Program-made: the position numbers and the translations under genes | Source: Sedimenticola sp. | Lineage (GTDB): Bacteria; Pseudomonadota; Gammaproteobacteria; Chromatiales; Chromatiaceae | Assembly: GCA_027030425.1 (NCBI GenBank) | Contig: JALVEW010000063.1 | Location: 1-38,956, forward strand | Reading direction: 5' to 3' | DNA: 38,956 nt | In this document: in pieces, positions 20,072 to 27,782 of the stretch | Numbering within the stretch: position 1 is the stretch's first letter | How the letters are laid out: the number at the start of each line of letters is the position of its first letter | The notes under the pieces: model-generated | What the model was told of the DNA's origin: nothing | What the model saw: only the letters and a program-made list of their open reading frames with translations | The model's database searches: none

Positions 20072-20665
20072 TCAGTTACCGTCCAGAACATAGCGAATGG
20101 CCTCGGTGATGACTTCCGAAGGCGTGTCATGGGGAAGGATGAAACGCAGCTCACCGCCAGGGCCGATGAGATAGGTGGCCGCTGAGTGGTTCACCGCATA
20201 ACCGAAGGCGGAACCTTCCAGCTCCACCTTGGAATACCTTGCCCCATACAGCGTTGCCGCTTGGGCGATCTCCTTTTCCGTGCCCGTCACGCCAATTAAT
20301 CGGGGATGAAAATAGGCCACGTATTCCTTCAGACGTTCCGGCGTATCCCGTTCGGGATCGACACTGACAAAAACACCGATCACTGTCTTCAGTTCATCAC
20401 TTTCCAGTCCGTTCAGGGCCTGGGTCATATAAGACAGGGAAGTTGGGCAGACATCCGGACACTTGGTGTAACCGAAATACAGCAACACTACCTTGCCACG
20501 CAAATCCTCCAGGGAAAAACTTTCGTCCCCCATGTGCAGAGTGAAATCTCCTCCCGGTGGCGCATTCGCTACCTTGGGCAGTCTTCCATCCTGCGCAGTT
20601 TGGTTCTCTGCCAGCAGGGGAAGCGCTACGACTGCGGCAAACAGCAATACCATCAAACGATACAT
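20072..20665 (-). CDS. SCO1/SenC-family copper protein
   Basis: A 197-residue thioredoxin-fold protein with a signal peptide (residues 1-19). 'YFGYTKCPDVCPTSL' supplies the copper-binding CxxxC pair (C69, C73) and 'YAVNHS' the third ligand (H160). Family members deliver copper to the CuA site of cytochrome c oxidase or act as thiol-disulfide reductases in the periplasm. GGAGG lies eight bases before ATG 20665. It is placed downstream of glrR (65 bp), not beside oxidase genes, and a second SCO gene exists at 27192-27782, so the two may have divided the work. Confidence 0.92.
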   Translation of the reverse strand: MYRLMVLLFAAVVALPLLAENQTAQDGRLPKVANAPPGGDFTLHMGDESFSLEDLRGKVVLLYFGYTKCPDVCPTSLSYMTQALNGLESDELKTVIGVFVSVDPERDTPERLKEYVAYFHPRLIGVTGTEKEIAQAATLYGARYSKVELEGSAFGYAVNHSAATYLIGPGGELRFILPHDTPSEVITEAIRYVLDGN

Positions 20666-20730: not shown

Positions 20731-22125
20731 TCATTCCCTGCGGAACAGCGCCGGCTCCAGCTCATGCCGGTGCAACAGGCGGTAGAACTCCGTGCGGTTG
20801 CGCTTTGCCAGGCGGGCTGCCCGGCTGACGTTGCCTGCCGTGGCCTGCAATAACCCCACCAGATAATCACGCTCGAATTCCTGGTGCGCCTGAGCCAGGG
20901 GAAGGATCTCGTCCTGTCTGTGGCGCAGGGCCTCCCTGACCAGCTTGTCGGAGATCACTGGTGTGGGTGAAAGCGCTGCCGCCTGCTCCACCACGTTGAG
21001 CAATTGGCGCACGTTTCCCGGCCAGGGAGCCAGCATCAGGGTCCGCATGGCCTCGGTTGAGAAACGGCGGGCCCTGCAACCCCGCTCGCCAGCCTGCTGC
21101 AGAAAATGCCGCGCCAGCAAGGGAATATCCTCCCGCCGCCGGGACAAAGGGGGAATCTCCAGCATCACCACGTTCAGACGATAGTACAGGTCTTCCCGGA
21201 ACCGCCCTTCCTCTATGGCCTGTTCCAGATTGGCATGAGTGGCCGCCACCACCCTCACATCCACGGGGAAGGACTCACTGGAACCCACAGGCCGCACCTC
21301 ACCATCTTCCAGCACCCGTAGCAGCTTGGCCTGAAACTCCACGGGCATGTCACCGATCTCATCGAGGAACAGTGTGCCGCCATCCGCGGATTCAAACAAG
21401 CCCTTGCGGTTGCTGGTAGCCCCGGTGAAGGCGCCACGGCGGTGACCGAAGAGTTCAGATTCCAGCAGGTTTTCTGGGATGGCGGCACAGTTTACCGGCA
21501 GAAAGGGCGCCTCCTTTCGGGGACTGGCACGATGCAGGGCACGAGCCAGCAGTTCCTTGCCCGTGCCGCTGGGGCTCTGGATGAGCACGCTCACCTCCGT
21601 CTGGGCCACCCGGCGGGCCTTTTCCAGCAGCGCCTCCATGGCGGCGCTCTCGCCGATAATACCGGCGCGCCAATCCTCAGCCTTGCCCGGTAGTGCAGGA
21701 TCTTCCGGATGCAGCTGCCCCAGGGCATCCTGGATGCTCTGCAGAAGCTCCCTGCCATCAAAGGGCTTGGTGAGATAGCTGAACATGCCCTTGCGGGTAG
21801 CACGCACTGCATCCGGAATGCTGCCGTGGGCAGTGAGCATGATCACCGGCAGAGCCGGCGCCTGTTTCTGTATGGCGTCGAACAGGGCCATGCCGTCCAT
21901 GCCCTGCATGCGCAGGTCTGTGATGACCAAGTGGGGTCGCCGGGCGCTTATCCTGCCCAGGGCCTGGCGCCCGCTGGCGGCCGTTTCCACAAGGTAGCCA
22001 TTGGCCTGCAGGCGCAGGGAAATAAGCTTGAGCAGCCCCGGATCATCGTCCACCACCAGTATCCGGTGATGACCGGGCGGGGAGCTTGTCGGCTGCAGGG
22101 GCGATGAAAGACTGTTCCTTTTCAT
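20731..22125 (-). CDS. glrR: Sigma-54-dependent response regulator GlrR
   Basis: Three domains are clear in 464 residues. The receiver (about 21-135) has the acidic 'VVDDDPG', the phosphoacceptor in 'VITDLRM' and 'LTKPF'. The AAA+ domain (about 150-385) has Walker A 'SPSGTGKE', the sigma-54 contact motif 'GAFTGA' and Walker B 'LFLDEIGD'. A Fis-type helix-turn-helix ends the protein. The gene order kinase-QseG-regulator matches the glrK-qseG-glrR operon of enterobacteria, where GlrR drives sigma-54 promoters through TGTC-N10-GACA sites. Only one plausible start, ATG 22125, precedes the receiver, giving an unusual 83-bp overlap with the lipoprotein gene. Confidence 0.93.
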
Positions 22126-22636
22126 TGATGTTCTGCTCTATCTGTTTGAGTTGCTGCAACCGGAAGTCCAAATCCTTCAGCCGCATCAATAGCTCTTTGT
22201 TCCTGGCCTTTTGCCTGCTCAGGCGATGCTGCAGTTCCAGGTTACGCAACCTCAGTTTGCGCTCGTGCCACAGCCGGTCACGCAGGAGCATGGCCAGCTG
22301 TCGGGCCTGGACCTTCTCCTGCAGGACACCGGTCTCGAGAAGCTCCTCGGCGAGCTTCAACGCCTGCGCTCTTTCGGCAGCCCGCCCCTGGCTATAGACC
22401 AGAGCAAGCCGCAGTTGATCGCATCCATCCCGCGACAAGACGTGGCGCTGCTGCAGGTCCTTCACGAAGCCTTCCCAACCTCCCCGGTCCATAGAAGCCC
22501 CGGTGGCATAATCCGCCAGCAGGTCAGGGCAGTCCTGGGCCGGCCCTTGCACCGGGGAAGAGGCAGGGGATACCGACTCCTGAATGGAGGCACAACCGGC
22601 AAGCAGCAATGCCGGCAACAGCAACAACTTGTTCAT
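22043..22636 (-). CDS. qseG: QseG-like outer-membrane lipoprotein
   Basis: A 197-residue lipoprotein: the lipobox 'LLLAGC' puts the lipidated cysteine near residue 15. The rest is mostly helical, and the C-terminal 90 residues form a charged coiled coil ('RDRLWHERKLRLRNLELQH' region). Position between glrK and glrR identifies it as the QseG counterpart, which in E. coli binds and stimulates the kinase from the outer membrane. Sequence similarity to QseG is modest by eye, so the name rests largely on synteny. ATG 22636 overlaps the kinase stop (ATGA) and follows an AAGAG ribosome site. Its 3' end overlaps glrR by 83 bp. Confidence 0.8.
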   Translation of the reverse strand: MNKLLLLPALLLAGCASIQESVSPASSPVQGPAQDCPDLLADYATGASMDRGGWEGFVKDLQQRHVLSRDGCDQLRLALVYSQGRAAERAQALKLAEELLETGVLQEKVQARQLAMLLRDRLWHERKLRLRNLELQHRLSRQKARNKELLMRLKDLDFRLQQLKQIEQNINEKEQSFIAPAADKLPARSSPDTGGGR

Positions 22637-24066
22637 GTCTCTTCCCACACCGGTAAGCTGACCCGAAAATGAGCACCCTGCTCCTTGTCCAGGAGTTCCA
22701 CCGATCCCCCATGCATGTCCAGATATCTCCTCACCAGAGACAGCCCCAACCCCGTACCCCGCACCGGGCCGGTGGAAGGCGATCTACCCTGGAAGAAAGG
22801 TTCAAACAGGTGCTGCCGGTCCTCCCGAGCCACGCCCCAACCCTGGTCTATGACATCCATGATCGCCTGATGGTTCTCCCGGCGCAGGGAAATTGAGACC
22901 TGGGTACCATCCGGGGAGTACTTGATGGCATTGGAGAGCAGGTTGTCGATGACCACCTGCAGCTGCTTCTCATCCCCATTCACCATCACCGGTTCCAGGT
23001 CCAGCTTCACCTTCATGCTTCGGCTCTTCAGGGTCAGTTCGTGCTTATTCACCGCGGCTGGCACCAGGGTGGAAATATCCAGGGGCTGCCTGCGCGAAAG
23101 TTTCTCTTCCGACAGGGCCAGGTTGAAATTCAGCAGGCTTTCCACCTGCGTCTGCAACTGCAGGCTGTTTTCCCGGAGAATGCCCGTCACCTCGGCCTGG
23201 TCCGCCGTCAGTTTCCCCATGATGCCTTCATCCAGCAGTTCCGCCGCCTCACGGATGGCAGTGAGGGGGGTCTTCAGCTCGTGGGAAACATGGTGCAGGA
23301 AACTCGTCTTTTGCTCCTGCAGAGCAATCAAGCGGCGGCGCAGCCAGTCCAGCTGTTCACCGAGCTCGTATACATCCTGGGGCCCTCTCACCCTTATGGG
23401 ACCGGACAGCTCACCGCCGCCCAGCTGGCGTATGGCCCTGCCCAGCCGGCGCAGGGAATTGGAAATCAGCACGCTGAAGATCACCGCAATGAGCAGGGCC
23501 ACGGGAATCAGCACCCCCGCCTGCCAGAGCAGCAGCTTTCTCAGGGAATCCATCTGCTCATTGATATGCCGGCTCTCCCGGGACACCAGGGCTGTGACGT
23601 CAAAGGGAATGGGCGCCACAAGATCCGCCAGCTGCTCATCCTCCCGCAGGCGTTTCTCCCCGTCGACCAGGCGGGCCGGGGCCAGAAGCAATTTCTGGTA
23701 GAGCCGGAACTCGTTCTTCCGCAGCTGATCCAGCCGCGATGACAGCACCGTATCCCGGGGCAGCAGGCTCAGCAGGCGCTCCATCTCCTCCAGGAACTGC
23801 TGTCGCTGGTTCTCATAACGGGAAAGAATGGCATCGTCTCCCAGCACCAGGTACTGGAGAGCGCTGCGCTCCATGTTCAGAGCCTGCCCCGCTATGAGCC
23901 GCCCGGACTCCACCGCCGAGGTGGACACATGCACCGCCTGCTGCACTTTCTCCGCCAGCCGATCCACCTGCACCATGGTATTGAGCAATCCCAGGGCAAG
24001 GGGAATGGCGGCTAGAAAGAAACCCAGCAGGGTAAGCTGGAGTATGGATGCTGGCCTGATCGACAT
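22633..24066 (-). CDS. glrK: Sensor histidine kinase GlrK (QseE)
   Basis: A 477-residue membrane kinase from ATG 24066; the open frame upstream (to 24201) lacks kinase-like features and covers the regulatory sites, so it is discarded. One membrane helix near residues 10-30 and one near 170-195 bracket a periplasmic helical sensor domain. HAMP follows, then HisKA with 'HHVSHELKTPLTAIREA' (phosphorylated His) and the ATPase domain with 'VIDNLLSNAIKYSPDGTQ' (N box), 'DQGWGV' (G1) and 'GTGLGLSLV' (G2). It pairs with GlrR and responds to envelope state in E. coli; the signal here is unknown. Confidence 0.92.
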   Translation of the reverse strand: MSIRPASILQLTLLGFFLAAIPLALGLLNTMVQVDRLAEKVQQAVHVSTSAVESGRLIAGQALNMERSALQYLVLGDDAILSRYENQRQQFLEEMERLLSLLPRDTVLSSRLDQLRKNEFRLYQKLLLAPARLVDGEKRLREDEQLADLVAPIPFDVTALVSRESRHINEQMDSLRKLLLWQAGVLIPVALLIAVIFSVLISNSLRRLGRAIRQLGGGELSGPIRVRGPQDVYELGEQLDWLRRRLIALQEQKTSFLHHVSHELKTPLTAIREAAELLDEGIMGKLTADQAEVTGILRENSLQLQTQVESLLNFNLALSEEKLSRRQPLDISTLVPAAVNKHELTLKSRSMKVKLDLEPVMVNGDEKQLQVVIDNLLSNAIKYSPDGTQVSISLRRENHQAIMDVIDQGWGVAREDRQHLFEPFFQGRSPSTGPVRGTGLGLSLVRRYLDMHGGSVELLDKEQGAHFRVSLPVWEET

Positions 24067-24103
24067 GCTCTGATTCTGCCAAACAAATCCTTCGTGCACG
24101 AAC

Positions 24104-24121
24104 TGTCGCCAACCAGCGACA
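24104..24121. promoter_or_regulatory. GlrR binding site 1 (TGTC-N10-GACA)
   Basis: A perfect TGTC-N10-GACA match, the GlrR operator described upstream of glmY in enterobacteria. It is 38 bp before glrK and about 160 bp before the expected start of the sigma-54 transcript, so it could serve activation of the EF-hand gene, autoregulation of glrK, or both. Confidence 0.75.
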
Positions 24122-24160
24122 CCTGGATATCCACTGACTGTCGGACATCCGCACCGGCAG

Positions 24161-24178
24161 TGTCTCCATACAGCGACA
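24161..24178. promoter_or_regulatory. GlrR binding site 2 (TGTC-N10-GACA)
   Basis: A second perfect TGTC-N10-GACA site, 57 bp from the first, centred about 100 bp upstream of the expected sigma-54 start. A partial site (TGTC and GACA close together, 24139-24147) lies between the two. Enhancer sites at this distance suit an AAA+ activator that loops to the promoter. Confidence 0.75.
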
Positions 24179-24245
24179 GGATGCATCTTCCCGGAATCCA
24201 CTGGATAACAAACAATACCGTGTTATTTCAATTAGTTATAAATCA

Positions 24246-24261
24246 TGGCACAGGAGTTGCT
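24246..24261 (+). promoter_or_regulatory. Sigma-54 promoter of the EF-hand gene
   Basis: TGGCAC, five bases, then TTGCT: the -24/-12 sigma-54 consensus with the invariant GG and GC at correct spacing. The predicted transcript starts near 24272 and gives a leader of about 60 bases before ATG 24333. Confidence 0.85.
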
Positions 24262-24332
24262 AAAACCAGAGCACAGACCGAAACCAGGTCTGTATGACAA
24301 CCAATCCAATATGTAAGAAAAGGAGCTATATC

Positions 24333-24611
24333 ATGTCTAAGAAAATTGTTCTCGCTGCCCTGGGCACTCTGTTTACTGCCGGCAGCATCGCCGGAAGCGC
24401 CTTCACGGCCCTGGACAGGGATCTGAACGGCAATATCAGCAAGCAGGAAGCCTCTGCGGTGCCCAGCCTGGCCGAGCAGTGGAATTCCCTGGACAAGGAC
24501 GGCAGCGGCGACCTCAGCAAAGAGGAGTTCCAGGCTTTCGAAAACGCCAATGAACCTGGCGAGGACACTTCCATGCTGAAAGACGCACCCAGGACTTCCC
24601 AGGGCAAGTGA
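24333..24611 (+). CDS. Small exported EF-hand calcium-binding protein
   Basis: A 92-residue product with a signal peptide (about residues 1-23) and two canonical 12-residue EF-hand loops: D28-E39 (D.D.NGNI...E) and D54-E65 (D.DGSGDL...E), with acidic residues at positions 1, 3 and 12. It is therefore expected to bind calcium in the periplasm or outside the cell. The start follows an AAGGAG site eight bases upstream; an earlier frame start (24294) has no ribosome site. It is divergent from glrK and has a sigma-54 promoter with GlrR-type operators, so it is likely a GlrR target. No partner is evident. Confidence 0.92.
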   Translation: MSKKIVLAALGTLFTAGSIAGSAFTALDRDLNGNISKQEASAVPSLAEQWNSLDKDGSGDLSKEEFQAFENANEPGEDTSMLKDAPRTSQGK

Positions 24612-24665: not shown

Positions 24666-24700
24666 GCCCCGTCGTCAGTTTGATGGCGGGGCCTTTTTCT
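24666..24700 (+). terminator. Rho-independent terminator of the EF-hand gene
   Basis: GCCCCGTC and GGCGGGGC form a GC-rich stem around an 11-base loop, followed by CTTTTTCTTTC. It closes the sigma-54 transcript. Confidence 0.8.
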
Positions 24701-26504: not shown

Positions 26505-26659
26505 CACCAGACAGGCGGCAGCCTGTGCCATTTCGCACACTCAGGGGCAGTTCAGGGCCTCAAGGACAAGATTCCGGGGTGATATTGACATATGTCGTGT
26601 TTACAGCTTTTTTCCTGCTGATAGCATGGCGCTCTCGCACAATATTGAAGGAGATAACC
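26505..26659 (+). promoter_or_regulatory. Leader of the copper chaperone gene
   Basis: The stretch between the element and the gene contains TTGACA at 26585-26590 that overlaps a 10-bp palindrome GACATATGTC (26587-26596), which could be a -35 plus operator. No good -10 is seen. Copper-dependent control is only a guess from the gene content. The ribosome site is AAGGAG at 26648-26653. Confidence 0.35.
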
Positions 26660-27136
26660 ATGTTCAAGCAACTGACTTCCGGACTTCTGCTCGGCCTGTT
26701 TCTCGCCAGCCCCGTTTTCTCGGGCACGGCCGCCGACGATATCCAGGTGATGGACCCCTGGGCCCGGGAAGTTCCCCCCGGTCTGACCACCAGCGCAGGT
26801 TTCCTCACCCTGCACAACAAGGGCAGCAAGGAACACAAGCTGGTTGCTGCGGAATCCCCGGCCACCGGCACGGTGGAACTGCATACCCACATCAATGACA
26901 ACGGCGTGATGCGCATGCGCCCCGTAAAAGACATTCCCGTGGCCGCTGGCGGCAAGACTGAACTCAAGCCCGGTGGTTACCACCTGATGCTGATGATGCT
27001 GAAGAAGCCCCTGAAATCCGGCGAGAAAATGCCCATCACCCTACAATTCGAAGATGGCAGCAAGAAGGAAATCCAGGCGGAAGTACGCCACTTCAGCATG
27101 GAAAAGGGCATGAAGCACATGAAGATGGATCACTGA
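26660..27136 (+). CDS. PCuAC-family periplasmic copper chaperone
   Basis: A 158-residue exported protein with a signal peptide (about residues 1-24). It fits the copper(I) motif of the family, H-x10-M-x21-H-x-M: H75, M86, H108 and M110. The C-terminus is rich in His and Met ('HFSMEKGMKHMKMDH'), a further copper-binding feature. PCuAC proteins bring Cu(I) to SCO and to the CuA site of cytochrome oxidase. It is followed 56 bp later by an SCO gene, so the pair forms a copper delivery unit. The longer open frame from 26525 is ignored because a strong ribosome site precedes ATG 26660. Confidence 0.93.
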   Translation: MFKQLTSGLLLGLFLASPVFSGTAADDIQVMDPWAREVPPGLTTSAGFLTLHNKGSKEHKLVAAESPATGTVELHTHINDNGVMRMRPVKDIPVAAGGKTELKPGGYHLMLMMLKKPLKSGEKMPITLQFEDGSKKEIQAEVRHFSMEKGMKHMKMDH

Positions 27137-27191
27137 ATTTCCAGTGGCAGGGACGCCGCAATCATCCACTCCACACCTGGCTCATGAACCC

Positions 27192-27782
27192 ATGAAACCT
27201 CTGTCCTGGTTCCTTCTGGCTTTGTTTCTCATGGCCGCCGACGCACAGGCTTGGTCCCTGTTCTCCGGCAGCGATAAAGAAGAGCGCTTTCCCGGCATGG
27301 GCGGCGATTTCACCCTGCGCAGCGCGGACGGGCCGGTTTCCCTGAAGGACTTTCGCGGCAAGCTGGTGCTCCTTTATTTCGGCTACACTTCCTGTCCCGA
27401 TGTCTGTCCCACCTCCCTGGGCGCACTGTCTTCCGCCCTGAAAAAGCTCCCGGACAAAGACATGGCCCAGATCCAGCCTCTGTTCATCAGCGTGGATCCG
27501 GATCGGGACGATGTGAACAAACTGAAGGACTATGCCCGCTATTTTCACCCAAGGATGATCGGCGCCACGGCGGATCTTCCCTACCTGGAAGACCTGGCGA
27601 AACGTTATGGCGCTTTTTTCCGCAAAGTGCCGGTAGAGGATTCAAACATCGGTTACGCCGTGGATCATTCCTCCACCATTTATGTCGTGAACAGGGATGG
27701 CAAGCTGGTGGACATGATCCAGCACGGCGGCTCGCCCAGGCGCATCCTGGAGCATATTCGCAAGGCGCTTCAGGAAGATTAA
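27192..27782 (+). CDS. Second SCO1/SenC-family copper protein
   Basis: A 196-residue thioredoxin-fold protein with signal peptide (1-20). 'YFGYTSCPDVCPTSLG' provides the CxxxC copper ligands (C68, C72) and 'YAVDHSS' the histidine (H159). It works with the PCuAC protein encoded just upstream in assembling the copper centre of respiratory oxidase. It is clearly paralogous to the SCO at 20072-20665 (same motif layout and length). Its TAA stop codon (27780-27782) lies inside the terminal inverted repeat of the neighbouring element, so the natural C-terminus may have been altered slightly. Confidence 0.94.
   Translation: MKPLSWFLLALFLMAADAQAWSLFSGSDKEERFPGMGGDFTLRSADGPVSLKDFRGKLVLLYFGYTSCPDVCPTSLGALSSALKKLPDKDMAQIQPLFISVDPDRDDVNKLKDYARYFHPRMIGATADLPYLEDLAKRYGAFFRKVPVEDSNIGYAVDHSSTIYVVNRDGKLVDMIQHGGSPRRILEHIRKALQED

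Follow-up and report, generated by a model that had tools for sequence, protein, structure and literature searches.

A putative GlrR–sigma-54 promoter unit directed at a small exported EF-hand protein in Sedimenticola sp. and its relatives

The intergenic region between glrK and a divergently oriented EF-hand gene in Sedimenticola sp. is, with high probability, a GlrR–sigma-54 enhancer/promoter unit whose output would be a small exported calcium-binding protein. The region lies within a stretch of 38,956 nucleotides, which was analysed as a whole and is referred to here as the window. The case for this assignment is made by the DNA elements, their joint conservation, their helical phasing, a near-identical recognition helix of GlrR and the co-occurrence of glrK with the EF-hand gene, all of which can be read from the genomes compared. 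What is known of GlrKR (QseEF) comes almost entirely from enterobacteria and from work on the small RNA (sRNA) GlmY. In bacteria other than Enterobacterales, the targets of GlrR-type systems appear to be small proteins that are exported or belong to the envelope, in the present case the EF-hand protein. In other words, the output of a known stress switch appears to have been swapped during evolution, being a small regulatory RNA in E. coli and an exported calcium-binding protein here and in many proteobacteria.

The putative control region begins with two perfect TGTC-N10-GACA palindromes, both predicted GlrR sites: UAS1 (TGTCGCCAACCAGCGACA, 24104–24121), which forms an extended TGTCGC/GCGACA palindrome and is kept in relatives, and UAS2 (TGTCTCCATACAGCGACA, 24161–24178). 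They are followed on the forward strand by an IHF-like site at 24226–24238 (TTTCAATTAGTTA, 12 of 13 positions matching WATCAANNNNTTR) and by a sigma-54 -24/-12 promoter at 24246–24261 (TGGCACAGGAGTTGCT), identical to TGGCAC-N5-TTGCT at all 11 positions. This is the arrangement of a glmY-type promoter, in which at least two TGTC-N10-GACA sites lie upstream of a -24/-12 element and an IHF site lies between the activator sites and the promoter. The promoter faces the EF-hand gene and is divergent from glrK; its spacing from UAS2, 67 bp, adjoins the 62–66 bp phase class described below. Transcription is predicted to start at about 24272, giving a 61-nt 5' leader (24272–24332, forward strand) with a 7-bp hairpin at its predicted 5' end (24273–24293) and a ribosome-binding site, AAGGAG, at 24320–24325 on the same strand. 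An intrinsic terminator is predicted 3' of the EF-hand gene (24666–24692, forward strand), past which tRNA-Phe is encoded on the opposite strand. No sigma-70-type promoter was found in the glrK/EF-hand region. The two perfect sites and the perfect promoter had been reported in a preliminary description of this DNA; they are confirmed in the sequence and lie far above chance. The IHF-like site and the 5'-end hairpin are additions to that description.

For windows simulated under a Markov model (400 in total), the expectation was 0.5 for a single TGTC-N10-GACA site and 0.02 for a strict -24/-12 element, compared with two and one, respectively, seen in the window, and none of the simulations produced the complete pair-plus-promoter arrangement. 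Genome-wide, TGTC-N10-GACA is found 49 times and its reversed control 47 times, which is the level of chance, and the significance of one such site alone was therefore dropped. The non-random feature is the pair of sites together with the promoter in an intergenic region. Four other UAS-plus-promoter-like matches in the genome were considered as further GlrR targets and rejected, since all of them lie inside long open frames; the same holds for a close site pair on contig C172, the only other pair noticed. We also scanned 369 genomes, sampled evenly across the class, for the site-site-promoter pattern alone, with no protein criterion. Seventeen genomes contained it, at 19 places in total; there was no occurrence of the reversed pattern.

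All three genes of the adjoining regulatory cluster are on the reverse strand. The product of glrK (22633–24066) is a QseE-type sensor kinase with Pfam HisKA, HATPase_c and HAMP domains and 31% identity to E. coli GlrK. The next gene (22043–22636) encodes a lipoprotein having no Pfam or NCBIfam match, which is considered QseG-like on account of its LLLAGC lipobox, its position between glrK and glrR and its 27% identity to E. coli QseG. The product of glrR (20731–22125) is a sigma-54 activator whose best NCBIfam match by far is GlrR, yet at 602 bits it falls below the equivalog cut-off of NF011695 (763 bits), and we therefore call it GlrR-type rather than a curated enterobacterial equivalog. 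It shares 58.9% identity with E. coli GlrR. The order glrK–QseG-type lipoprotein–glrR and a DNA-recognition helix (RNRTEFY) identical to that of E. coli GlrR place the cluster among GlrK/GlrR (QseEF) systems. The genome also has rpoN. By eye, the region is flanked by two Sco1/SenC-like proteins (20072–20665, reverse strand; 27144–27782, forward strand) and by one PCu(A)C-like copper chaperone (26525–27136, forward strand).

The gene faced by the promoter (24333–24611, forward strand) encodes a protein of 92 aa that carries a signal peptide and two EF-hand loops of the canonical 12-residue form, DRDLNGNISKQE (24414–24449) and DKDGSGDLSKEE (24492–24527), and matches Pfam EF-hand_1/5/6 above the curated cut-offs. 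As its start we preferred the ATG at 24333, with the ribosome-binding site noted above, over an upstream ATG at 24294. From these features we infer that the protein would bind Ca2+ and be exported. Plasmid-borne relatives of the protein were sought, with weak matches only. The gene is under purifying selection: dN/dS against close relatives is 0.2–0.3, and the EF-loop positions are conserved in an alignment of homologues. On these grounds, and in view of a leader of 61 nt and a genome with no GlmY match, the transcript is read as an mRNA, perhaps with a stabilising hairpin at its 5' end.

The gene and the regulatory system tend to occur together. Among 15 genomes of the window's genus, 10 have glrK together with the EF-hand gene, and 4 (two of them 99% complete) have neither; glrK occurs on its own in 1 and the EF-hand gene on its own in 0. 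If relatedness is ignored, the probability that all 10 EF-hand genomes belong by chance to the 11 glrK carriers comes to 11/3003. Of the 11 glrK genomes, 10 yielded a glrR ortholog (at least 68% identity), and the 4 genomes lacking glrK yielded none; the eleventh glrK genome, G147, is 84% complete, and its glrK match lies within 10 bases of a contig end. In a comparison for which relatives were picked by GlrK alone, the divergent glrK/EF-hand layout with two sites (some matching at 7 of 8 positions) and a -24/-12 promoter was found in genera g1, g4, g18, g19 and g42. Kinases of genera g20 and g29, 33–38% identical, have no upstream sites and were placed in a different group. Joint conservation of the sites and the EF-hand gene, which the preliminary description had proposed as a check, extends across the genus and several other genera, and the combination of sites, sigma-54 promoter and EF-hand gene also turned up in unrelated genomes when only the promoter pattern was used for the search. 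Together with the presence of rpoN, this supports the earlier suggestion that GlrR may control a calcium-binding exported protein in this lineage.

To view the promoter type more broadly, species genomes were scanned for two sites plus promoter, again with no protein criterion, which gave at least 119 loci. Among the loci listed, at least 57 promoters are near a GlrR-type regulator (at least 53% identity) or a GlrK-like kinase (at least 29%), and three layouts occur: divergent from glrK, as in the window; upstream of glrK and facing it, the position of glmY in enterobacteria; and 3' of glrR, usual in Betaproteobacteria. Also among the listed loci, an EF-hand gene occupies the glmY slot in some gammaproteobacteria (L086, L115, L147, L175 and L177) and lies 3' of glrR at L109 and L130. 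In the class scan, 7 of the 19 places, window included, have a gene for an exported EF-hand protein as the first one downstream, and those proteins that are in the EF-hand alignment match Pfam EF-hand. A Pfam search of 42 first downstream proteins from the listed loci gave BON (16), bactofilin (6), EF-hand (6) and glycine zipper (5). On a GlrR tree, EF-hand output stands in several separate places and at least four label changes are forced, the tree being a quick one with several long branches, in which L187 should carry the EF label. These observations suggest that the promoter type adjoins GlrR-type regulators across Beta- and Gammaproteobacteria, with a first gene predicted to encode a small exported or envelope protein of the BON, glycine-zipper, bactofilin or EF-hand kind, and that the sRNA GlmY is the first gene of such a promoter probably only in Enterobacterales. 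The extended GlrR regulon put forward earlier gains support and seems wider than first proposed, comprising small exported or envelope proteins outside Enterobacterales.

The geometry of these promoters is also regular. Among the loci listed, the gaps from UAS2 to the -24 element cluster at 62–66, 72–77 and 83–88 bp (Rayleigh R = 0.77, n = 57), a pattern that a requirement for activator and polymerase to lie on one face of the helix would produce. An IHF consensus of 12/13 or better is present in 55 of 78 UAS2–promoter gaps (7.4 expected) and in 40 of 78 site-to-site gaps (4.2 expected) among these loci, mostly at fixed offsets. One locus, L110, has dual-UAS sigma-54 promoters on both sides of a single glrK–glrR cluster, one upstream of glrK and directed at a bactofilin gene, the other 3' of glrR and directed at another small exported protein.

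The TGTC-N10-GACA motif class is not unique to GlrR, because it is also found beside less similar activators (42–46% identity), there with a different core, TGTCCGGA. Dual palindromes of the latter type with a -24/-12 element lie between NtrC-type activators (about 39–46% to GlrR) and genes for TRAP- or ABC-type substrate-binding proteins in Marinobacter, Halomonadaceae and Rhodocyclaceae (L055, L064, L067, L097, L113, L122, L137, L182, L081, L093 and L148). At two Clostridial/Bacillota loci (L042 and L105), dual TGTCTA..TAGACA sites and a -24/-12 element separate an NtrC-type activator from an apparent CoA-transferase gene. Dual TGTC-N10-GACA sites and a -24/-12 element are also found upstream of apparent PEP-CTERM/exosortase-associated acyltransferase genes (L172, L178 and L180), twice with a GlrR-type regulator adjoining.

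In the circuit that we propose, GlrK, together with the QseG-like lipoprotein, would sense a condition of the envelope and then phosphorylate GlrR. GlrR dimers would then bind UAS1 and UAS2, and IHF would bend the DNA so that the GlrR oligomer meets sigma-54 polymerase at 24246–24261. Both this binding and transcription from the promoter are what we infer from the arrangement of the elements. The product would be a monocistronic mRNA that starts at about 24272 and ends with the terminator at 24692, and the 92-aa protein would be delivered to the periplasm. It is tempting to speculate that the protein plays a part in homeostasis of the envelope; it might, for example, be a Ca2+-dependent buffer or feed back on GlrK. 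A model for such feedback is CpxP, which acts on CpxA.

Several observations count against a GlrR circuit, namely the missed NCBIfam cut-off, a motif that is not GlrR's alone and the loss of the EF-hand gene in one genome of the genus (G095), and three other explanations have to be weighed. The preliminary description had allowed for an sRNA hidden in the leader. We consider it very unlikely that a GlmY-like sRNA resides there or that the whole transcript is mainly a regulatory RNA, even though glmY is driven by the same promoter type in Enterobacterales, a hairpin stands at the start of the leader, and in G095 the promoter and hairpin are followed by merely a 20-codon ORF ahead of a terminator. 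A search of the whole genome of the window for GlmY (Rfam RF00128) gave no match, whereas the E. coli control was found, and the only Rfam match in the window is the tRNA. The leader is merely 61 nt long, and the EF loops of the gene behind it are intact. The absence of GlmY combined with purifying selection on the EF-hand gene makes a hidden sRNA unlikely, and this part of the description is not supported. As for the hairpin, it is present in all 11 uninterrupted leaders of the window's group (window included), alike in form and differing in stem sequence, but a clear 5' hairpin is absent from genomes of genus g4 and from those in which the EF-hand gene precedes glrK. It is only moderately stronger than random genomic windows and hard to align, and for these reasons was set aside as main evidence. 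In G078 (L007/L155) and G151 (L156), about 115 bp are inserted in the hairpin loop, with the CAGACC/GGTCTG stem arms intact.

The two remaining explanations concern the target and the activator. UAS1 precedes the start codon of glrK by only 37 bp, so the sites might mainly autoregulate glrK, the EF-hand gene being a bystander with its own promoter. We find this hardly probable at all: no close -24/-12 element points toward glrK, whereas the perfect one faces the EF-hand gene; in every other layout, whether 3' of glrR or in the order promoter, EF-hand gene, glrK, the promoter faces the small gene; and no such autoregulation was detected in E. coli (PMC6075780). Use of the sites by another sigma-54 activator, of the NtrC/PrsR class, would accord with the presence in the genome of a further GlrR-related NtrC-type activator (49% identity) and with the PEP-CTERM-type acyltransferase genes after similar sites. 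Nonetheless, the sites are beside glrKR in all listed layouts, the EF-hand gene never occurs without glrK in the genus, and the recognition helix equals that of E. coli GlrR, which leaves this explanation quite improbable. GlrR-dependent expression of the EF-hand protein is accordingly the reading that we retain as probable.

The genome that has lost the EF-hand gene, G095 (L014 = L085), retains glrKR, the sites, the promoter and the hairpin. On its contig C8, about 240–430 upstream of glrK, a ribosome-binding site and the 20-codon ORF (MFQITLHKGVETKDRLSDSK) are followed by the terminator, and the promoter would thus give a short sRNA-like transcript. This RNA, predicted from one draft genome, could serve as a model of how GlmY originated. 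One could imagine that GlrR ancestrally drove a gene next to the operon for a small exported protein, either an EF-hand or another envelope protein, and that GlmY arose in the slot upstream of glrK by decay of the coding part of such an mRNA, with promoter, leader and terminator kept, G095 being an independent example; we regard this scenario as unlikely.

If the proposed circuit is true, activating genes for small exported or envelope proteins would be the wider role of GlrKR, the GlmY branch being one specialised output. The circuit would also tie an envelope two-component system to extracytoplasmic calcium in a way that can be tested, and would allow a change of regulatory output between protein and sRNA to be traced. 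Moreover, the DNA signature (two phased TGTC-N10-GACA sites, an IHF site and a -24/-12 promoter) would find GlrR targets where none are known. A search of the available literature found no paper that connects EF-hand, BON-domain or bactofilin targets to GlrR or QseF. One paper naming both 'glrr' and 'BON domain' (PMC1084347) deals, to judge by its title, with a type-III secretion locus.

The closest known system is glmY of E. coli K-12 (b2554/b4441), for which the QseF consensus TGTCN10GACA has been published together with IHF sites (PMC8745638). Its layout agrees with the scheme, the sites lying at -230, -197 and -134 and the -24/-12 element at -27, and it shares with the window the TGTC-N10-GACA sites, IHF-type sites, a -24/-12 promoter, a linked glrK–qseG–glrR operon and a near-identical helix. 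It differs in having three sites rather than two and an sRNA as its output, whereas the predicted target in the window is an exported EF-hand protein, encoded divergently from glrK in a genome with no GlmY match. A second known GlrR/QseF–sigma-54 target in E. coli is rpoE, which relates to envelope homeostasis (PMC6075780), as the window's protein might, speculatively; unlike the EF-hand gene, rpoE encodes a sigma factor and is unlinked to glrKR (PMC6075780). A small EF-hand protein in a stress-regulatory circuit is known from Caulobacter vibrioides, where the Sec-exported periplasmic CaBP (133 aa, three EF-hands) is linked to the ECF sigma factor SigV (PMC13171946), without GlrR or sigma-54; export of the window's protein is predicted. 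Finally, the available text of the 2025 QseG–QseE paper (PMC12691602) describes qseE–qseG–qseF clusters across Pseudomonadota, with qseG central, in Gamma- and Betaproteobacteria and Acidithiobacillia. Within that text glmY is the only target discussed and EF-hand proteins are unmentioned, and the cluster layout it describes is the one found in the window.
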